DNA of 40,332 bases from Actinomycetes bacterium (GTDB lineage Bacteria; Actinomycetota; Acidimicrobiia; Acidimicrobiales; Ilumatobacteraceae): positions 1 through 40,332 of the forward strand of contig BJGC01000019.1 of the NCBI GenBank assembly GCA_014190235.1, in the 5' to 3' direction. Every line of letters begins with the position of its first letter. Position 1 is the first letter of the stretch. The translations under genes and the position numbers were made by a program. The notes beneath the pieces are model-generated. The model made no database searches. It worked only from the letters and a program-made list of their open reading frames with translations, and was not told the DNA's origin. This document shows, piece by piece, positions 1 through 35,865 of the stretch.

Positions 1-794
1 GCATCACGAAAAGATCTCAAAGCATCAGCCAGTGCATCTGGCGTACACAGCGTCATTGAGCCAGACAGTTGAGTGGCAAACTCAGGCGAAAAAACTTCAA
101 GATATTCATACGCAAAGGTCCGCAATGTTTCTGGGGCGTTTTTGCCTAGCGCAACAAAACTTCCCGTGATGTGTCGAGGCTTGACAGTTCGCCCGGCTGA
201 TTGCCACGCCTCTGATGTTGAGCGCACTTGACGCTTGACTTCGCGAGCATCGCCTAGCAATGTAAATCCACTCACCCCCGTTGCCCACTGCGCCACTCGT
301 GCTAATGACTTTGGACCCATTGCCGAGCCGTATAGCGGTGGACCACCATCTTGCAGCGGCTGAGGTCCAATTGATTCTCCATCGGCGGCGACACCACCAC
401 GCCACAATCGCTGAATCTCGTGTACCGCATCATCAAGGCGTTGATGACGATGCGCAAAAGATGATCCAACCGCGGCGTAGTCCTGCCAGCGGCCGCCAAC
501 ACCTACAGCGACATCTAGGCGACCGCCGCTCATCACATCGATTGTGGCGAGTTGTTTAGCGATGAGCGCTGTCGCATGCCAGGGCAACACAGCCACGTTC
601 ATCATCACGCGCACTCGTTCGGTGGCAACAGCAGCAGCCGCGCACAAAGTGAGTCCCTCAAGGTTTCGAAATGTGATCCTCTCCCCTGCTGAAATGCTTG
701 AAAACGGACCATCATCAGCCGCCGTGCACCACTGCAATACTGCTGCTCGATCAAGACCGCGTGCCATCTGGGGTATCGCGAGTCCTACATCCAT
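1..794 (-). CDS. LLM-class flavin/F420-dependent oxidoreductase, C-terminus cut by window edge
   Basis: Reading leftward from an ATG at 794, the frame stays open to base 1, giving 264 codons of a luciferase-like monooxygenase fold protein. Its N-terminus is MDVGLAIPQM. A mid-protein block (LATIDVMSGGRLDVAVGVGG) matches the family's SGGR-hxxGhG signature, and a GSAMGPKSLARVAQWATG segment follows, as is usual before the second half of the barrel. The family uses FMN or F420; fbiC in this window shows that F420 is made. The start is fixed by an in-frame TAG four codons upstream, and TAGAGT lies 6 nt before the ATG, so the mRNA is probably leaderless. It is divergent from the aminotransferase. 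The substrate cannot be told. Confidence is high for the family and low for the cofactor. Confidence 0.88.
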   Translation of the reverse strand, partial: MDVGLAIPQMARGLDRAAVLQWCTAADDGPFSSISAGERITFRNLEGLTLCAAAAVATERVRVMMNVAVLPWHATALIAKQLATIDVMSGGRLDVAVGVGGRWQDYAAVGSSFAHRHQRLDDAVHEIQRLWRGGVAADGESIGPQPLQDGGPPLYGSAMGPKSLARVAQWATGVSGFTLLGDAREVKRQVRSTSEAWQSAGRTVKPRHITGSFVALGKNAPETLRTFAYEYLEVFSPEFATQLSGSMTLCTPDALADALRSFRD

Positions 795-800
795 ATACCC

Positions 801-806
801 ACTCTA
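801..806 (-). promoter_or_regulatory. -10 box (TAGAGT) of a leaderless promoter
   Basis: TAGAGT on the minus strand lies 6 nt before the ATG at 794. It matches the actinobacterial TAnnnT -10 element at the distance expected if transcription begins at or beside the start codon. No Shine-Dalgarno is present. No convincing -35 was found. Confidence 0.5.
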
Positions 807-7817: not shown

Positions 7818-10229
7818 CTAGTTGTCGTCTTGAGAAGATTCCAATTCCTCTATTGACATCATGACAGCGCGCGCCTTGGAGCCCTCACTCGGACCAACAA
7901 TTCCGCGTTCTTCTAGCAAGTCCATCAGTCGACCAGCACGAGCAAAACCCACTTTGAGTTTGCGTTGCAACAACGAGGTCGACCCCACGCCGGCACGCAC
8001 CACAATTTCGATAGCTTGATTCAGCAATTCGTCGTCATCGCCGCCTCCACCTCCAAAAGAGCCTGAGGAGCCGTTGGCGTTGGCATCTCCTTCGATGCCC
8101 GTGACATACACAACCTCTGGCGACTGACGGCGCCAGTGAGCCACTACTTTGCGTACTTCTTCTTCACTCACCCATGAACCCTGGATTCGGTTGGCCACAT
8201 TGCTATTGCCTGGCAGCAACAACATGTCTCCTTGTCCGATGAGTTTTTCAGCACCGATTTGATCCAAGATTACGCGGCTATCGGTGAGACTTGACACAGC
8301 AAACGCCATGCGCGCCGGAATATTTGCTTTGATAACACCCGTGATGACATTCACGCTTGGTCGTTGTGTGGCAACAATAAGGTGCACTCCAACTGCTCGT
8401 GCTTTTTGAGCGATACGCGTGATGCTTTCTTCGACGTCTCGCGCTGCAACCATCATGAGATCATTTAACTCATCAACGACAACGACGATGTAGGGCAAGC
8501 GTTTGTATTCCGGCTGACCTTCTTCAATGGGCATTTCTCCACGATCGTACGCTGCGTTGTATCCAGTGATATCTCGAAAGCCGACTTCAACAAGCAAGTC
8601 GTATCGCCGCTCCATTTCTTTGACAGCCCAACTCAAAGCATTCGCGGCCTTTTTTGGATTAGTGACGGGTGCAGTGAGCAAATGTGGCAGACGTGCGTAT
8701 TGGCCCATTTCTACTTGTTTGGGGTCAATCAAGATCATGCGAACCTGATCGGGAGTCGTGCGCATAAGCAACGATGTAATGATGCTGTTGAGACCACTTG
8801 ATTTACCAGCACCGGTTGCTCCCGCAATGAGCAAGTGAGGCGTTGTAGCAAGGTTCAAGAACACCGCGCGACCTGCGATGTCTTTACCGATGGCAACATC
8901 GAGTGGATGAACCGCTGCGCGCGCCTCGGGTGATGTGATGAGATCTCCGAGCGACACCAATTGGCGAGATTCATTTGGCACTTCGACACCAATTGCTGAC
9001 TTACCCGGAATCGGCGCCAAGATGCGCACGTCAACTGCTGCCATTGAGTATGCGATGTCACGATTGAGGCTTGTAACGCGAGCAACTTTGACGCCAGGTC
9101 CAAGTTCGAGTTCAAAACGCGTCACAGTTGGACCGACTGTCATTCCCATCAGTCGCGTTTCAACTCCGTGCGATGCGAGCGACTCTTGCAAAAGTTCACC
9201 GCGTGCGGCAACACGTGCCTTGTCGACTTCGTGTGCTTCAGTTCGCGAGAGCAATGAGTTGTCCGGAAGAACCCAGATGCTTTTCTCTGCTGATGGGCCG
9301 AGATTGAGATGCGCTGGTTCATCCTTGCCACCAGAAGTTTTTCCGGGCTTTTGATGAAACTCCGGAGTGGCTGCTGGTGGCGGCGTCTCAGGCGTTTTTG
9401 TTTTTTTCAACTTCTTGGGCTGATCTGCAAAATCGGGGTCAAGACCCGCGTCATACAGAGTCGCTTGTGTTGGCAGCGGTCGAGGTTCGTTGAACTCTTT
9501 GGGTTCGTCCGTGAGATCGTCATAGACGTTGACATTGGGTCGGTCACTGCGCCCGAGTTGACGCAATCCAGTGCGTGCTGTTTGTGACGCAGGGCCAGCC
9601 ATTGTGCGTGAGAATTCGCGCACCTTGGTCATGAGTTCTGGCAATGACACGTCAGTAATGAGCAGCACCCCCGACACCATGACAGCAAATAGAACAACAC
9701 TTGCTCCTGCCCAGCCAATTGTTGATCTGAGTGGCTCTGCAAGAATTGCGCCCACCCATCCGCCAGCATCCGACATGGCGTCAACCGCAGCGATGATTTC
9801 ATTGCTGCCGTTTACTAAATGCAAGAATCCCAAAGTTGCAACGACACCAATCGCCCATCCAATGGACAACCGCACACGATGCTCGACTTCTTGGCGACGC
9901 ACCATGGCGACACCGATTCCAAGAATCACTAGTGGAAGTGCAAATCTCCCGAGACCAACAAGCCACCCAAGTGACGTATCAATACCTCTGCCGACTGGTC
10001 CTGCAAGATGCAGATAGAGCGCCAGCCCCAACAAGATTCCGGCGCTGATAAACGCGACTCCCCAAAACTCCACTTCGCGACCCGCAAACGCCGCACGCGT
10101 CAACGACTCACCCTTTGCCTCACGAGCCTTCGAAGTCCCAGACCCAGCCCGCGGACGAGAGCTTCCCTTGGGAGGTGTCTTGACGGACGAACCAGAGCGC
10201 CCAGACGATGAAGAACCCTTTGCAGACAT
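7818..10229 (-). CDS. ftsK: DNA translocase FtsK/SpoIIIE
   Basis: This 803-residue protein has a Ser/Gly/Lys-rich cytoplasmic start (1-45), then hydrophobic membrane helices (about 55-78, 88-110, 122-140 and 170-193). A charged linker rich in Pro and Lys follows to about 310. The motor has Walker A GATGAGKSS at 470-478 and Walker B IVVVVDELND. A C-terminal gamma winged helix (about 730-795) would read KOPS-like polar DNA sequences. It pumps DNA through the septum during chromosome segregation. The linker is short compared with E. coli FtsK and resembles the SpoIIIE/actinobacterial form. TACGGT 7 nt before the ATG suggests a leaderless message. Confidence 0.96.
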   Translation of the reverse strand: MSAKGSSSSGRSGSSVKTPPKGSSRPRAGSGTSKAREAKGESLTRAAFAGREVEFWGVAFISAGILLGLALYLHLAGPVGRGIDTSLGWLVGLGRFALPLVILGIGVAMVRRQEVEHRVRLSIGWAIGVVATLGFLHLVNGSNEIIAAVDAMSDAGGWVGAILAEPLRSTIGWAGASVVLFAVMVSGVLLITDVSLPELMTKVREFSRTMAGPASQTARTGLRQLGRSDRPNVNVYDDLTDEPKEFNEPRPLPTQATLYDAGLDPDFADQPKKLKKTKTPETPPPAATPEFHQKPGKTSGGKDEPAHLNLGPSAEKSIWVLPDNSLLSRTEAHEVDKARVAARGELLQESLASHGVETRLMGMTVGPTVTRFELELGPGVKVARVTSLNRDIAYSMAAVDVRILAPIPGKSAIGVEVPNESRQLVSLGDLITSPEARAAVHPLDVAIGKDIAGRAVFLNLATTPHLLIAGATGAGKSSGLNSIITSLLMRTTPDQVRMILIDPKQVEMGQYARLPHLLTAPVTNPKKAANALSWAVKEMERRYDLLVEVGFRDITGYNAAYDRGEMPIEEGQPEYKRLPYIVVVVDELNDLMMVAARDVEESITRIAQKARAVGVHLIVATQRPSVNVITGVIKANIPARMAFAVSSLTDSRVILDQIGAEKLIGQGDMLLLPGNSNVANRIQGSWVSEEEVRKVVAHWRRQSPEVVYVTGIEGDANANGSSGSFGGGGGDDDELLNQAIEIVVRAGVGSTSLLQRKLKVGFARAGRLMDLLEERGIVGPSEGSKARAVMMSIEELESSQDDN

Positions 10230-24508: not shown

Positions 24509-24763
24509 TTATCGGCGAAGGCCGAGTTCTTGGAGCAAATCGCGGTAGCGAGCAACGTCACGATCGCGCACATAATCGAGCATGCGACGGCGACGACCCA
24601 CCAACATCAAAAGGCCACGACGACTGTGGTGGTCTTTGGGATGTGTTTGGAGGTGTCCGGTTAATTGATTAATACGGTCTGTCAGCAACGCAATCTGGAC
24701 ATCCGGCGATCCGGTGTCGGTAGCGTGTTGGCGATGGGCCGCAATTGTGTCTTGCTTAGACAT
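24509..24763 (-). CDS. rpsO: 30S ribosomal protein S15
   Basis: This 84-residue protein matches S15 from its conserved [20 protein letters not shown] through [21 protein letters not shown]15 binds the 16S rRNA central domain early in 30S assembly. It is about five residues shorter at the N-terminus than the usual 89. GAGG lies 4 nt before the ATG. It stands directly upstream of pnp, the usual bacterial order, but its usual upstream partner ribF is separated from it by the inserted ribE/AroQ-VOC/fbiC block. Confidence 0.97.
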
Positions 24764-24886
24764 TCTGCCTCATTTCACAGGAGGTCGCTGGTCACGGATG
24801 TGAACAGCATCCAATCAGAGTCGAAACCCCAACGGACATCTCAAGGCTATTGGTATTCCCCCAATGCTTCCAACCTCCAACAGGAT

Positions 24887-24892
24887 TAGTGT
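24887..24892 (+). promoter_or_regulatory. -10 box (TAGTGT) of ribE, probably leaderless
   Basis: TAGTGT lies 7 nt before the ATG at 24900 and is the same hexamer as in the tetR promoter. It would drive the ribE / AroQ-VOC / fbiC block. An ATTGG/CCAAT inverted repeat lies about 20-35 nt upstream. Confidence 0.45.
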
Positions 24893-24899
24893 CTCAGGT

Positions 24900-25463
24900 A
24901 TGTTCACGGGGATTGTTGAAGAATTGGGCACAGTACAGAGCCGACAGGGAGACCGACTGCGTATCGGCGCGGCTGTTGTCCTGCAAGGCTCTGATCTGGG
25001 TGCCTCGATTGCAGTGAATGGGTGCTGTCTCACGCTTGTGGCACAAGGCCCCGACTGGTGGGAAGCGGATGTCAGTGAAGAAACGTACTCCCGCACCAAT
25101 CTCGGCGCGATGAAACCTGGTGACCCCGTAAACCTAGAAAGACCGATGGCACTAGGCGAACGCTTGGGTGGACATATTGTTTTGGGTCATGTTGACGCAG
25201 TCGGAACCATCGTGTCGCCCGCTCCCGCTTTAACTGTGCGCATTCCGCGCGACCTCATGCGCTATGTCGTTGAAAAAGGTTCAGTCACCGTCGACGGCAT
25301 CAGTCTCACGGCATTTCACTTAGGAGACGACACATTTGATGTCGCAGTCATTCCTCACACTGTCCAAGTCACAACTCTGGGACATCGTCGCGTAGGCGAC
25401 AGCGTCAACATTGAAATCGACGTGCTGGCAAAGCATGTTGAGCGACTCGTCAACCACGACTAG
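24900..25463 (+). CDS. ribE: Riboflavin synthase (alpha chain type)
   Basis: This 187-residue protein is two tandem lumazine-binding barrels. The first begins MFTGIVEELGTV and the second GHIVLGHVDAVGTI near residue 92. VNGCCLTL in the first and VTVDGISLT in the second are the usual binding loops. It dismutates two 6,7-dimethyl-8-ribityllumazine molecules to riboflavin and 5-amino-6-ribitylaminouracil. That second product is also a precursor of Fo, made by fbiC two genes on. A possible start 12 codons upstream is not conserved. No FMN riboswitch is visible in the 136 nt before it. Confidence 0.95.
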   Translation: MFTGIVEELGTVQSRQGDRLRIGAAVVLQGSDLGASIAVNGCCLTLVAQGPDWWEADVSEETYSRTNLGAMKPGDPVNLERPMALGERLGGHIVLGHVDAVGTIVSPAPALTVRIPRDLMRYVVEKGSVTVDGISLTAFHLGDDTFDVAVIPHTVQVTTLGHRRVGDSVNIEIDVLAKHVERLVNHD

Positions 25464-25473
25464 ACATATAGAC

Positions 25474-26244
25474 ATGGCATCACTTGACAACCTCCGATCA
25501 GAGATCGATGACATCGATCACGCGATTATTGATCTCTTGGCACGACGATTGCGCATTTGCGCAGATGTCGCTCGCATTAAAGCCGAAACAGGTTCGACGG
25601 TTATTCAGCCAGCACGGGTGCGCGATGTGCTGTCAACTCGACGTCAATGGGCAATAGATCAAGGAGTTGATGCTGATTTTGCTGAACACCTCTTTCGCAC
25701 ATTGCTGGCCGAAACTCACCGGATAGAAGTTGCTGACAGTCGTGCCGAACCAGCACCACTAAAAAATGCAGACGCGGTCGTGCGCTCAGAACTTGACACG
25801 GTTGCCTGTCGTATCGACCATGTCGTTGTGGCAGTAGTTGACTTGATTGCGGCACAAAAGTTTTTCTCCGACATGGGATTTCGCATTCAACAAACTGACG
25901 ATGTCAACATCGTGTCTGCTGAGGCTGGCGGTGTTGCAGTAGTACTCGTTGGTCCAGGCGACGACCCGGCAGTAGCGGCCCAACTCAGCGCACATGGTTC
26001 TGGCGTGCAACACATAGCGATCGAAGTTCTCAATGCAGGATTCACCCGTGACGCCCTTGATGCTGCTGGAGTACCCCGTCTGACCGATGTCATTGTTGAC
26101 TCTGACGGGCATGAGCAGGTCTTTACTGTTCTTGACCCAGCAACTGGCGTGCAACTGGGCTTCATCAGCCGAACAGGCCACCGAGTGCCCATGAACAGCC
26201 ACAATGTTCGGGCAATGTTTTCGGCACTCTCGGATGACGCCTGA
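25474..26244 (+). CDS. Chorismate mutase (AroQ)-VOC domain fusion
   Basis: In this 256-residue protein, residues 1-88 form an AroQ helical chorismate mutase. R8, R25, K36 and R48 have exactly the spacing of E. coli R11, R28, K39 and R51, and E85 falls where E. coli has Q88, as in yeast chorismate mutase. V49 replaces E. coli E52. After a linker, residues 113-235 are a single glyoxalase/VOC module (RIDHVVVAVVD with H116; GVQHIAIEV with H180 and E184; a late VLDPATGVQLGFI strand). The second motif resembles 4-hydroxyphenylpyruvate dioxygenase. It would make prephenate, a tyrosine precursor; the VOC role is unknown. It starts 10 nt after ribE. An earlier ATG at 25411 lies inside ribE and is rejected. 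Confidence 0.85.
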   Translation: MASLDNLRSEIDDIDHAIIDLLARRLRICADVARIKAETGSTVIQPARVRDVLSTRRQWAIDQGVDADFAEHLFRTLLAETHRIEVADSRAEPAPLKNADAVVRSELDTVACRIDHVVVAVVDLIAAQKFFSDMGFRIQQTDDVNIVSAEAGGVAVVLVGPGDDPAVAAQLSAHGSGVQHIAIEVLNAGFTRDALDAAGVPRLTDVIVDSDGHEQVFTVLDPATGVQLGFISRTGHRVPMNSHNVRAMFSALSDDA

Positions 26245-26297
26245 CAGCATCTATATCGGCATTGGCGAGATAAGGTAAAGGTGCACGGTCTTTTGGG

Positions 26298-26332
26298 AAT
26301 CTCAACCGAACCTCTTACATACGGCTGAGATT
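26298..26332. promoter_or_regulatory. Imperfect inverted repeat in the fbiC leader
   Basis: AATCTCA-A-CCG (26298-26308) faces CGG-C-TGAGATT (26322-26332) across 13 nt, ten of eleven positions pairing. It lies 54-88 nt before the fbiC start. It could be a dimeric-regulator site or an RNA stem; no U-run follows. Confidence 0.5.
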
Positions 26333-26385
26333 TCGACCGGCACTGGCATATAACCGATCCGTTTCTCAGCCCATTGGAGGGTGTT

Positions 26386-28797
26386 GTGTCGTCGAGCCAG
26401 TTTTCACGTACCGAACTCATGCAGTCGTTCCCTATTGATTCATCTGTGCTGGACTTTGTCGCACATGCCTCGCTAAAAGATCTGCAGCAGCGTGCTCGCC
26501 AGATTAGAGACACAACGTTTGGGACACGCGTAACGTTTTCTCCCAAAGTATTTATCCCGCTCACTATGTTGTGTCGCGACAAATGTGGATACTGCACATT
26601 TGCTCAGCCGCCAGCACGACTTGAAAAGCCGTACCTCACTGCCGAAGACGTCTTGGCTATCGCTCGTCAAGGAGCGCGCACCGGATGTCATGAGGCGCTC
26701 TTCACTCTTGGTGAGCGACCAGAACTGCGATATGAAATTGCTGCTGACTGGCTTCGTACAAATGGCTTTGATTCCACCGTGCATTATCTGCACGACATGG
26801 CTCAACTCGTGTTGCAGGAGACTGGTCTTTTGCCGCACGCCAATGCAGGTGCGCTGTATCGCGATGAGCTAGAAATGCTTCGATCTGTCTCGCCATCACA
26901 AGGGATGATGCTCGAGTCCTTGCGCGATGATTTGGATTGCCACAAAGGTGCACCAGATAAACAGTCTCAGCGACGCATTGACACGCTGTGTCACGCAGGC
27001 GAACTTCAGATTCCGTTTACAACCGGAATCTTGGTTGGTATCGGAGAAGATCGTTCAGATCGCATCGAAGCATTGTCACTCATTGCTGCTGCGCATCAAC
27101 AATACGGTCACGTACAAGAAGTCATCGTGCAGAATTTTCTGCCAAAAGCGCGTACTGCAATGCAGTCTTCACTCGCTTGTCCCGAAGATGAGTTCTTATG
27201 GTCAATCGCGGCGGCACGAATCCTTTTGCCGGCCAGTATCCACTTACAAGCGCCACCAAATCTGTCAGACGATTTCGGCTCTCTGCTTGATGCTGGTATT
27301 GACGACTGGGGTGGTGTTTCACCAGTCACGGCTGACCACGTGAATCCAGAGCGACCCTGGCCCGCGCTTGAACGCTTGCAACACGTCACAGAGCAACGCG
27401 GTCATGTTTTGGCCTCGCGCCTCACGATTTATCCAGAATATGTTCGTCAGCCCGAGCGTTTCCTTGATGACGCCTTGCGTTTTTACGTGATGGACCGTAG
27501 TGATGCTGAGGGTCTTGGTCGAGATGATCCAGGTGCATTGTGGCCCGAAAAAGTAACTGCTGCTGACGTCGTACAAGATGGCGCTGAAGTTGTGTTAGTC
27601 GGGCACAAGTCAACACAGTGGTACTCGGGCTCCAATGTCAAACCATTGATACTGATCCCCCATCAGGACCCACGAGCAACGGGCAGAATCGCCGAGATCA
27701 TTCAAGGGCATCGGAGTGGTCAAGAAATCGGACAAGACGAGATCGTCGCACTTTTTAGTGCACGCGGACCCGAGGTGGGTGCAATCGCTCAATACGCCGA
27801 CCAGTTACGTCGCGAGGTTGTTGGAGACGATGTCACTTGGGTGCACAACCGCAACATCAACTACACAAATGTGTGTACCTACAAATGTCGATTCTGTGGT
27901 TTTTCTAAGGGGCCGTTAAGTCTCAACCTCCGGGGCACGCCGTACTTGTTGACACTCGATGACATTGCGCAACGCGCTCAAGAAGCGGCGGTCTTAGGAG
28001 CAACTGAAGTCACCTTGCAAGGTGGCATTCACCCTGATTTTGACGGTGATTATTACATTGACGTCACTCGGGCCGTGAAAGCAGCAGTCCCTGATATGCA
28101 CGTACACGGTTTTACGGCGCTCGAAGTGACCGAAGGAGCCACGCGCAACCAAGAACCATTGCGTGACTATCTGCTACGCCTCAAAGATGCTGGATTGGCT
28201 TCACTGCCGGGTACTGCTGCCGAAATTCTTGACGACGAAGTGCGCGCAATCCTGTGCTCCGACAAAGTCAACACCGAAGAATGGCTTGAGTGCCATCGAC
28301 AAGCACACCTCATCGGCCTTAAATCAAACATCACCATCATGTTCGGAAGCATTGAACACCCAGAATCGTGGGCTCGTCACATGATTGTCACCCGTGACCT
28401 GCAAAAGGAAACGGGTGGGTTTACAGAATTTATCCCGCTGCCTTTTGTGCACATGGCATCACCGATTTATCTGCAACACAAGGCACGCCGCGGCCCGACT
28501 TTCCGGGAGACGGTGTTAATGCATTCCATCGGGCGTCTTGCGTATCACGGACTGATTGACAATGTTCAAGTCTCGTGGGTAAAAATCGGAACTGCAGGTG
28601 CTGCGCAACTTCTGCAGGCTGGTTGTAATGATCTGGGCGGAACACTGATGGACGAAAACATCTCACGTGCAGCCGGAGCAAACCACGGTCAAGCAATGAC
28701 AGAGGGTCGCTTCGGAGAAATCGTGGCACCATTGCGGCGCACGCTTCGTCAGCGCACCACTGGATACAAAATGTTCAGCGTTGCGGCTGGTGATTAA
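26386..28797 (+). CDS. fbiC: 7,8-didemethyl-8-hydroxy-5-deazariboflavin (Fo) synthase, CofG-CofH fusion
   Basis: This 803-residue protein fuses two radical SAM enzymes. The first half is CofG-like, with C63, C67 and C70 in CRDKCGYC. The second is CofH-like, with C497, C501 and C504 in CTYKCRFC. Together they join tyrosine to 5-amino-6-ribitylaminouracil to make Fo, the chromophore of coenzyme F420. The fused form is typical of actinobacteria. I chose the GTG at 26386 because GGAGGG lies 5 nt before it; a TTG at 26374 is also in frame. Its 3' end overlaps the convergent ribF by 23 nt. The upstream genes ribE and AroQ-VOC touch both substrate pathways. Confidence 0.97.
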   Translation: MSSSQFSRTELMQSFPIDSSVLDFVAHASLKDLQQRARQIRDTTFGTRVTFSPKVFIPLTMLCRDKCGYCTFAQPPARLEKPYLTAEDVLAIARQGARTGCHEALFTLGERPELRYEIAADWLRTNGFDSTVHYLHDMAQLVLQETGLLPHANAGALYRDELEMLRSVSPSQGMMLESLRDDLDCHKGAPDKQSQRRIDTLCHAGELQIPFTTGILVGIGEDRSDRIEALSLIAAAHQQYGHVQEVIVQNFLPKARTAMQSSLACPEDEFLWSIAAARILLPASIHLQAPPNLSDDFGSLLDAGIDDWGGVSPVTADHVNPERPWPALERLQHVTEQRGHVLASRLTIYPEYVRQPERFLDDALRFYVMDRSDAEGLGRDDPGALWPEKVTAADVVQDGAEVVLVGHKSTQWYSGSNVKPLILIPHQDPRATGRIAEIIQGHRSGQEIGQDEIVALFSARGPEVGAIAQYADQLRREVVGDDVTWVHNRNINYTNVCTYKCRFCGFSKGPLSLNLRGTPYLLTLDDIAQRAQEAAVLGATEVTLQGGIHPDFDGDYYIDVTRAVKAAVPDMHVHGFTALEVTEGATRNQEPLRDYLLRLKDAGLASLPGTAAEILDDEVRAILCSDKVNTEEWLECHRQAHLIGLKSNITIMFGSIEHPESWARHMIVTRDLQKETGGFTEFIPLPFVHMASPIYLQHKARRGPTFRETVLMHSIGRLAYHGLIDNVQVSWVKIGTAGAAQLLQAGCNDLGGTLMDENISRAAGANHGQAMTEGRFGEIVAPLRRTLRQRTTGYKMFSVAAGD

Positions 28798-35076: not shown

Positions 35077-35865
35077 CTACAACAAAAACTGCGCTGCTGC
35101 TGCAAGAGCATTGACATCAGGGGCGCCACTGCACAGCAGCACAATTCGATTCACGCCTTCGTTTTGCCACTGCACACGTTGTGGATGACTGGGGTCAAGA
35201 AGCGCGTCATCCCATTTAACCCACATAGAGAGAATAAAATCTGGTCGGTCTTTTGACGCCTCACGCGCCGACGCAAGGATGTCGAGTCGCCGTGGATGCT
35301 GTGCCCACACATTGACGCCATCTGAGTGTTGACCAGCAATCCGCGCCAAAGAAACGCTATTGACGCCAACAATTACAGGAATTGGAGTGTGTGGTTTCGC
35401 AAAGCCCCGAAACTTTTCATCTCGTTGCGGCTCCCATATTTGGCGCAGACTGGTAAGTGTCTCCACTACTCTTTCGTGACGTCGCGCCAGGACCGGTTCT
35501 ACCGGGTTGCCCAACGCGTGTTGCTCAGCAGCAAACGTACTGCGCGGAGATGCTCCAGCACCGACACCGAGAATAAAACGTCCACCTGAAATTTCATGCA
35601 CTGTTGTTGCGGCGAGCGCCAACAGACCAGCACTTCGGTTGGCGACATTAGCCACTAACGCACCAATGTTGACAGAGTGCGTTACTGCAGCGAGTGCCCC
35701 TAGTGTGGTGAAACATTCTTTCATCGAATCTGAGCCAAAGACTGCACCAGAAAAATGATCCAACACCCACACGGTGTGAAAACCTGATTGTTCAGCGACG
35801 TGCGTGGCCTCAACTAACGACGACCACGAACACGAACCTTGGTTGAACTGGACGTCGATAATCAT
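35077..35865 (-). CDS. LLM-class flavin/F420-dependent oxidoreductase
   Basis: This 262-residue luciferase-like barrel protein starts MIIDVQFNQG. It contains HTVWVLDHF near residue 29, THSVNIGALVANVANRS near 62 and the signature ISGGRFILGVGAGASP near 92. A closing PIPVIVGVNSVSLARIAGQHSDGVN block follows. It is shorter than many members (300-350). It probably uses F420 or FMN. Its ATGA overlaps the stop of the HAD-type gene by 4 nt, so it belongs to that operon. The substrate is unknown. Confidence 0.9.
   Translation of the reverse strand: MIIDVQFNQGSCSWSSLVEATHVAEQSGFHTVWVLDHFSGAVFGSDSMKECFTTLGALAAVTHSVNIGALVANVANRSAGLLALAATTVHEISGGRFILGVGAGASPRSTFAAEQHALGNPVEPVLARRHERVVETLTSLRQIWEPQRDEKFRGFAKPHTPIPVIVGVNSVSLARIAGQHSDGVNVWAQHPRRLDILASAREASKDRPDFILSMWVKWDDALLDPSHPQRVQWQNEGVNRIVLLCSGAPDVNALAAAAQFLL

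Follow-up and report, generated by a model that had tools for sequence, protein, structure and literature searches.

The cofactor F420 is important in redox chemistry and, in mycobacteria, in activating nitroimidazole drugs, and to our knowledge little is known about how its synthesis is controlled. Riboswitch-type leaders, of which the FMN riboswitch of rib operons is an example (riboswitch passages of PMC12855090), are the closest described counterpart of the element reported here, a structured RNA that precedes fbiC, the gene for Fo synthase. The element lies in a contig of 40,332 nucleotides (BJGC01000019.1; this whole stretch is called the window) from a 2.02-Mb, 96% complete assembly (GCA_014190235.1) of an Actinomycetes bacterium of the family Ilumatobacteraceae. 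In the window, ribE (riboflavin synthase), a gene for an AroQ chorismate mutase fused to a VOC domain (AroQ-VOC) and fbiC are all present on the plus strand, in that order, between rpsO and ribF. A reading made from the letters alone (the sequence-only reading) had described three plus-strand genes inside this slot, and their open reading frames, order, strand, families and flanks were all confirmed. The stronger finding of the locus is the leader RNA, which has no Rfam match and is dedicated to Fo synthase. The slot probably holds two units: ribE with AroQ-VOC, the latter a mutase with a sensing VOC domain, and fbiC, with a promoter of its own and a new leader RNA that acts in cis. Comparisons were made across 149 genomes, namely this one and its relatives, 91 of them from its own family.

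A structured leader RNA before the Fo synthase gene

The AroQ-VOC stop and the fbiC start are separated by a gap of 141 nt that folds at -47.3 kcal/mol (z = -2.38; 4 of 200 shuffles were as good) and contains an 11-nt inverted repeat, 26298-26308 with 26322-26332, that is 91% complementary. The elements in and after this gap, in window coordinates, are as follows.

26271..26276, plus strand: TAAGGT, the -10-like box (TANNNT) of the presumed fbiC promoter
26280..26353, plus strand: structured leader RNA, comprising P1, a 5-nt bulge, P2/P3, a loop and a conserved tail
26282..26290, plus strand: 5′ strand of P1 (TGCACGGTC), pairing with 26335-26342 in the minimum free energy fold
26298..26332, plus strand: the inverted repeat, that is P2/P3 with the loop; all five counted P3 pairs show changes on both sides
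26309..26321, plus strand: apical loop with a conserved core of the type UCU(A/U)(A/G)C, here CCTCTTACAT, as seen in the alignments
26343..26348, plus strand: conserved unpaired tail CTGGCA, in which C, T, C and A do not vary between aligned leaders
26386..28797, plus strand: fbiC (Fo synthase, a CofG-CofH fusion) with a GTG start

When leaders were folded singly, 16 of 22 took one shape, in which P1 is followed by a 5′ bulge of five bases, then by a long P2/P3 with its apical loop, and lastly by an unpaired CUGGCA-like tail. Two covariance models were built, R1 from 13 leaders of one group and R2 from ten own-genus leaders, the window among them. Alignment A7, with 37 distinct rows, shows two-sided changes in 12 of 20 pairs, a count reached by 12 of 500 shuffles, and A13, with 20 distinct rows, shows them in 9 of 15 pairs, reached by 1 of 500; both alignments were fitted to their models and their rows are related, so that these counts lean towards structure. 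The proposed pairs are formed in 88.8% of the cells of A7 and 88.1% of those of A13, against 34.6-41.3% and 22.8-50.3% when the pairing is slid; the shuffled means are 78.5% and 75.2%, and none of 500 shuffles was as high in either case. The 5′ region of fbiC holds, as a riboswitch does, a conserved and covarying structure. The apical loop and the unpaired tail are better conserved in sequence than P2/P3. Upstream of the structure, the T, A and T of TANNNT are invariant in 42 of 42 aligned leaders, and by a loose test the box occurs within the first 22 nt of all 61 distinct cut-out leaders, 3-7 nt 5′ of the first GC of P1. Positions 26200-26450 of the window gave no match in Rfam 15 at E ≤ 10, and the leader in seven relatives none at E ≤ 5.

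The sequence-only reading had argued from the inverted repeat that fbiC might be separately controlled, and this is probably correct: the repeat lies within the conserved, covarying leader behind a TANNNT box. We propose that fbiC is transcribed from its own promoter and that its transcript would begin with a hairpin of about 70 nt made up of P1, the five-nucleotide 5′ bulge, a long P2/P3, and the conserved apical loop and tail. The leader would act in cis on fbiC, most simply through a change in translation or in mRNA stability that a ligand or a protein would trigger. Three further candidates were dropped when, by eye, they did not hold between lineages: pairing of the loop with the Shine-Dalgarno sequence, T-box-like pairing of a tRNA through the UGGC tail, and a leader peptide, whose frames were not kept.

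The gene behind the leader carries CofG and CofH halves in one protein, as is expected of FbiC. The CofG half scores 446.1 bits with TIGR03550 (cut-off 213.35) and the CofH half 504.6 bits with TIGR03551 (cut-off 374.1); the full-length FbiC model, at 1004.8 against a cut-off of 1018, falls slightly short. A TTG at 26374 is an alternative possible start. The genome also encodes cofD (311.8 bits, cut-off 257.45) and cofE (247.9 bits, cut-off 180.65), overlapping at L209:6737-8451, so steps of F420 production beyond Fo are present; cofD was confirmed in this genome only. PF01933 matched in 22 of 22 sampled genomes and was dropped as an F420 marker, since the family also matches in E. coli and C. 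glutamicum. Two luciferase-like monooxygenases are encoded elsewhere in the window (3-803 and 35077-35865, both minus strand); their best NCBIfam models are F420-dependent, and both scores are below cut-off.

Occurrence of the leader and of HxlR genes

On the window, R2 scores 75.8 bits (E 3.6e-17 in its own genome), and the next best match in that genome has E 0.25. The model matches directly before fbiC in 22 own-genus genomes (25.0-78.9 bits, E ≤ 0.002), 31-41 nt 5′ of the first matched fbiC residue (G006 was judged from its public copy, L118). The four other own-genus genomes with fbiC comprise three with only a C-terminal fbiC match (G010, G017 and G018) and one whose contig ends 61 nt before fbiC (G019). 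R1 is found before fbiC in nine genomes of genera g4, g6 and g10 (30.2-92.9 bits, E ≤ 3e-4). The best off-site matches reach 27.7 bits for R2 (G045, E 7.7e-4) and 22.2 bits for R1, and matches of either model above 28 bits occur only before fbiC. A scan of loci with R2 returned 34 rows, 28 of them directly before fbiC; 21 of the rows are strong, and seven of the 13 weak ones (E 0.005-1) are on site. Across lineages, R2 is on site at L033 (E 4.4e-4) and, weakly, at L107, L188, L055, L172, L167, L049 and L162, all loci from which it had not been built. R1, built without own-genus members, has its best match on site in five of 15 loci of the genus (L004, L005, L007, L009 and L026).

The leader tracks fbiC and not the fusion: it is seen at L097, from a genome without the fusion (G037, E 0.041), and at L107, from a genome with fbiC and the fusion on different contigs (G052, E 0.017). 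Before other genes, only weak, off-site matches were obtained. One R1 match (L042:15162-15232 in G049; 19.5 bits, E 0.09), before a binding-protein gene that precedes fbiC, is too weak to count.

In relatives with fbiC outside the slot, the place beside the gene is often taken by a regulator. Of 20 fetched loci of this kind, 14 have an HxlR-family gene no more than 0.3 kb from fbiC, divergent in 11 and in line in three, and three of the 14 proteins were confirmed as PF01638. The remaining loci are L096, L097, L105, L107 and L110, which lack it, and L100, which ends 116 nt upstream. No HxlR gene was found at any of 28 slot loci (L041 covers only 391 nt upstream). Leader and HxlR gene were never seen together in these 48 loci, a pattern that makes a regulatory role of the leader likely. 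Examples of the HxlR genes are L092:7343-7807, L104:7354-7869 and L098:7555-8064; a AACAGAACTCACT-like stretch was seen by eye before fbiC in several loci.

A number of results count against a regulatory leader behind its own promoter. A two-hexamer sigma-70 consensus scan of 24760-26450 gave no promoter. RNAalifold predicted no pairs on a plain MAFFT alignment of 42 leaders (A2), and it was after this null result that the subgroup alignment and covariance models were used. Among the 22 single folds, L005, L011, L023 and L037 fold otherwise, and L006 and L008 are nearly right. Neither a terminator nor a conserved alternative fold was found in the fbiC leader; an alternative 8-nt pairing (26323-26330 with 26364-26371) was judged by eye not to be kept in L113 and L114. 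Off-site R2 matches with E 7.7e-4 to 0.0095 occur in G045, G096, G083, G117 and G079, so E-values above about 5e-4 are no proof, and six of the 34 rows of the R2 locus scan lie off site, one of them in ftsK (window 8799-8872, minus strand; 21.2 bits, E 0.0056), which we take as chance. The best R1 match is off site in eight of the 15 genus loci and there is none in two; on the window itself, R1 gives no match at E ≤ 1. Four loci, L036, L042, L047 and L053, have neither leader nor HxlR directly before fbiC.

With these results in mind, the hairpin might be a structural 5′ end that stabilizes the mRNA or binds a general protein and senses nothing. Such a role would suit a leader that is found on one gene per genome and in which searches turned up neither a terminator nor an alternative fold nor a known aptamer, and we regard it as possible, if on the doubtful side: the loop and tail are more conserved than P2/P3, unlike a plain stabilizer, and other relatives have a regulator gene in the leader's place. 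A regulatory leader is the reading that we prefer; conserved and dedicated to Fo synthase, it would offer a direct handle on F420 control in lineages without HxlR beside fbiC. The openly licensed PMC literature contained no mention of an F420 riboswitch, did not name fbiC together with HxlR or with a leader RNA, and did not bring acIV, Ilumatobacter and F420 together.

The AroQ-VOC fusion protein

The first of the two proposed units consists of the following genes.

24900..25463, plus strand: ribE (riboflavin synthase), NF006767 at 212.8 bits (cut-off 155), two Lum_binding stretches
25474..26244, plus strand: AroQ-VOC fusion, 256 aa, residues 4-87 AroQ chorismate mutase and 111-252 VOC domain

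The start of ribE at 24900 is the more likely one. The two genes are 10 nt apart and are probably cotranscribed. Both domains of the fusion exceed their Pfam cut-offs, CM_2 with 76.4 bits (cut-off 27) and Glyoxalase_4 with 34.4 bits. Matches at E ≤ 2e-18 were called as fusions, which placed AroQ-VOC in 62 of the 149 genomes, partial in G008, G018 and G023 and split over two contigs in G059. The AroQ half of the fusion is a PF01817 match in 61 of these 62, G023 having a contig with only the C-terminal end, and it is the single PF01817 match in 60. The sequence-only reading had suggested looking for a second, stand-alone chorismate mutase; none was found in 60 of the 61 fusion genomes scored with PF01817, and the other, G021, has a second, partial AroQ copy at a contig end. 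In the window's own genome the fusion gave a weak second match on contig C43 (E 0.006). A further 20 genomes of the family have AroQ without the fusion. The other mutase type searched, AroH (PF07736), is present in 44 of the 149 genomes; none of the 91 own-family genomes has it, and the 61 genomes in which the fusion gives the PF01817 match are without it. A sample of 22 fusion genomes, each with a completeness of 90% or more, had prephenate dehydrogenase in 22 and prephenate dehydratase in 19 (not matched in G034, G036 and G054). In the window's genome both are Pfam-confirmed, the dehydratase also by NCBIfam; the ACT domain is above cut-off in the dehydratase and below it in the dehydrogenase. 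Since the fusion is the sole mutase found and the dehydrogenase and dehydratase are present, it looks like the housekeeping chorismate mutase, as far as these draft assemblies, searched with PF01817 and AroH, show.

Arg8, Arg25, Lys36 and Arg48 of the AroQ half, which we take to be the substrate-binding Arg/Lys set of AroQ enzymes, are invariant in 61 of 61 fusion proteins, as is Glu85 in the AroQ half. At the position after the second motif Arg, where 3rmi has Glu (presumably Glu52 of the E. coli enzyme), all 61 have Val49 in place of the acidic residue, and PchB likewise has Val there. Judged from the residues, Val49 would weaken the case for an ordinary AroQ and not the case that the protein works as the mutase; genome content leads us to infer that the fusion is a mutase and not a lyase.

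The VOC half is closest to hydroxymandelate synthase and HPPD (4-hydroxyphenylpyruvate dioxygenase). A profile of 37 fusion proteins had hydroxymandelate synthase 2r5v as its top VOC match (3e-13), then 7yvv (6.6e-10) and methylmalonyl-CoA epimerase (4.7e-8); a profile of the VOC part only, from 21 proteins, gave 6.4e-14, 7.8e-11 and 3.4e-8 for the same three, and a 61-protein profile of nearer relatives gave 2r5v at 1.3e-11. When an AlphaFold2 model of AroQ-VOC (pLDDT 78, pTM 0.60) was compared by VIA-align, 2r5v/HPPD scored Z 14.0, two chorismate mutases 13.2 and 12.4, and human MCEE, the epimerase, 12.7. The metal site of the dioxygenase-type enzymes appears to be lost, and their architecture is not preserved. 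His116 is present in 61 of 61 fusion proteins and His180 in 58 (Gln in three); the position of the dioxygenase Glu ligand is Gly in 50 and Ser in 11, which would break the 2-His-1-carboxylate set of HPPD and hydroxymandelate synthase, whose ligands we assume to correspond to these three positions. The fusion has one VOC module, residues 111-252, where HPPD and the synthase have two, and it scores 27.3 bits with the HPPD model against a curated cut-off of 277. The epimerase model TIGR03081 gives 37.7 bits against 114.95. His213 and Glu214 are present in 61 of 61, and Arg233 and Arg237 are invariant.

Two histidines without the carboxylate, together with the invariant H213, E214, R233 and R237, are more in keeping with a domain that binds a ligand than with a dioxygenase, and the VOC half is probably a sensor. 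HPPD-type enzymes bind 4-hydroxyphenylpyruvate, one step after prephenate, which makes feedback sensing the simplest guess: the VOC domain would most likely bind an aromatic keto acid derived from prephenate and regulate the mutase as ACT domains do elsewhere. Speaking against this, the epimerase is close by structure (Z 12.7) and is ranked first by Foldseek, and each of the alignment stretches used to locate the lost Glu has a score of only 4.4-6.8 bits. These stretches are co-linear in all four dioxygenase-type chains shown, so that the apparent loss of the metal ligand is supported by a weak but recurring alignment. Alternatively, the VOC half might be an active metalloenzyme, of epimerase, glyoxalase or dioxygenase type, whose substrate derives from prephenate. 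H116, H213 and E214 in 61 of 61 proteins, with H180 in 58, would allow another ligand set, and the epimerase fold is near; we nevertheless consider an active enzyme rather doubtful, given Gly or Ser at the carboxylate position throughout, Gln for H180 in three proteins, and epimerase and HPPD scores far below the curated cut-offs. As the sole mutase found throughout a clade, the fusion points to a possible new mode of regulating entry into Phe/Tyr synthesis. Among the titles and abstract beginnings of the openly licensed PMC literature, there was no paper on a fusion of chorismate mutase with VOC or glyoxalase.

The rpsO-ribF slot in relatives and comparison with known systems

The slot is bordered by two minus-strand genes.

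24509..24763, minus strand: rpsO, left border, Ribosomal_S15 at 120.9 bits
28775..29794, minus strand: ribF, right border, FAD_syn and Flavokinase (Pfam)

The flanking genes, rpsO and pnp on the left and ribF, truB and rbfA on the right, are all on the minus strand and Pfam-confirmed. With a threshold of E ≤ 1e-60, fbiC was called in 128 of the 149 genomes, comprising 58 of the 62 with the fusion (G008, G045, G063 and G078 have no match) and 70 of the 87 without it. Within the family, 57 of 61 fusion genomes and 16 of 30 fusion-free genomes have fbiC, a difference that kinship and incomplete assemblies may cause, several of the fusion-free genomes being incomplete. Of 395 sampled genomes of the class, 21 match the fusion at E ≤ 1e-12, 20 of them from the same family and one (G358) by its AroQ half only. 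Another family of the order has one partial fusion (G094), a shorter AroQ-VOC of 241 aa (L051:1918-2640) that is 45% identical, has gaps in its VOC half and carries Ala in place of Gln45.

The 80 best of 146 named public loci, a set picked by similarity and hence biased to near relatives, have fbiC downstream on the same strand in 72 and ribE upstream in 77, with a gene-sized or larger gap in 4 of the 72 and 3 of the 77. A second set comprised 40 loci of fusion genomes, with ranges of 5.2 kb to the left and 12 kb for ribF. Here the 5.2 kb to the left contain rpsO in 34 loci (absent in 2, contig edge in 4) and ribE in 22 (absent in 11, edge in 7), and the 12 kb to the right contain ribF in 26, the contig ending before it in the remaining 14; fbiC is downstream of the fusion in 26 (absent in 8, edge in 6); at L042, fbiC is farther off on the same contig and was scored absent. 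An ABC permease gene occurs in 11 (absent in 21, edge in 8) and a gene for an NMT1/THI5-like binding protein in 13 (absent in 21, edge in 6). In several larger-genome genera the slot reads rpsO, [ribE], ABC ATPase, ABC permease, AroQ-VOC, NMT1/THI5-like binding protein, [fbiC], ribF. Transporter genes were found in the slot only in g9, g11, g12, g15, g16, g19, g22 and g24, whose genomes measure 2.4 to 5.8 Mb; none were found there in g1, g2, g4, g6 and g10. At L036, L042 and L053 the fbiC ATG overlaps the stop of the binding-protein gene, and at L047 the two are 22 nt apart. The ribE/AroQ-VOC/fbiC neighbourhood is real but lineage-bound. The genes being no neighbours in related genomes, the observation that the sequence-only reading had named as fatal to its proposal, was made in several genera with larger genomes, but not in those with small genomes.

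Beside these patterns, AroQ-VOC sits between the permease and the NMT1/THI5-like binding protein of the ABC importer at L038, L040, L043, L045, L046, L048, L050 and L052. With fbiC overlapping or closely following the binding-protein gene at L036, L042, L047 and L053, this may point to an importer with a link to the metabolism of flavins, pyrimidines or Fo, for which we take the RibXY type of riboflavin ABC transporter as the comparison; the binding protein itself has a general NMT1/THI5 family match (77.2 bits) and no riboflavin-specific assignment, and no Rfam RNA or riboswitch was found in eight transporter loci. In genus g6, DUF222 and PemK/MazF-like genes lie between AroQ-VOC and fbiC (L071:6891-8725 and L068; families from L071), an insertion that leaves the leader attached to fbiC.

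The neighbourhood might also be a by-product of genome reduction, in which loss of the slot transporter genes left fbiC beside the fusion and the order recurs by vertical inheritance. The restriction of these genes to larger-genome genera and the location of fbiC elsewhere in many relatives would agree with this, but g9 and g19 already have fbiC after the binding-protein gene in the slot, so fbiC did not join the slot from gene loss only, and we hold reduction as the explanation to be unlikely. A bolder form of the two-unit reading, in which the leader would be a riboswitch for Fo or F420, the first such RNA known, and would exert feedback on Fo synthase in the Ilumatobacteraceae in place of the HxlR-type regulator of other Acidimicrobiales, and in which a dioxygenase-like domain of AroQ-VOC would regulate the mutase by sensing 4-hydroxyphenylpyruvate or prephenate, seems to us distinctly unlikely as a whole. 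A single ribE/AroQ-VOC/fbiC operon that supplies and balances both Fo substrates, with AroQ-VOC as the dedicated F420 accessory envisaged by the sequence-only reading, is very improbable: the tight ribE-AroQ-VOC spacing, the order recurring in most of the 80 similar loci, the frequency of fbiC in fusion genomes (58 of 62; 57 of 61 in the family against 16 of 30 without the fusion) and the placing of fbiC after a transporter-protein gene of the same slot at L036, L042, L047 and L053 speak for it, but the fusion is the sole mutase found in genomes that have the Phe/Tyr genes, fbiC is present in 70 of 87 fusion-free genomes and unmatched in four with the fusion, several genera have the fusion beside transporter genes without fbiC, and fbiC has its own TANNNT box and leader.

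Compared with known systems, the leader that we propose for the fbiC unit shares with riboswitch-type leaders, such as the FMN riboswitch of rib operons, its position in the 5′ leader of a cofactor gene, a conserved loop and covarying stems; it differs in that it matches no Rfam family. It occupies the same place beside fbiC as the HxlR regulator gene of relatives, which encodes a protein instead of an RNA and was found at none of the 28 slot loci. The AroQ half has the all-helical fold and invariant Arg/Lys set common to AroQ chorismate mutases and the isochorismate-pyruvate lyase PchB (PF01817), its closest solved relatives being 3rmi and PchB; it differs in the Val where 3rmi has Glu (PchB also has Val), in the invariant Glu85 and in the fused VOC domain. 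The VOC half shares with hydroxymandelate synthase and HPPD, its top matches by profile and VIA-align, a GVQHIA motif and a similar C-terminal GxxNxxALxxA end; these enzymes have two VOC modules and a Glu ligand, whereas the fusion has one module and Gly or Ser. With methylmalonyl-CoA epimerase, the first Foldseek match, it has in common a single VOC module and structural similarity (Z 12.7 to human MCEE), and it differs in a score of 37.7 bits, far below the cut-off of 114.95. In its presumed mode of action the fusion would resemble the ACT-regulated enzymes of Phe/Tyr synthesis, as a branch enzyme fused to a ligand-binding domain, with VOC taking the place of ACT.

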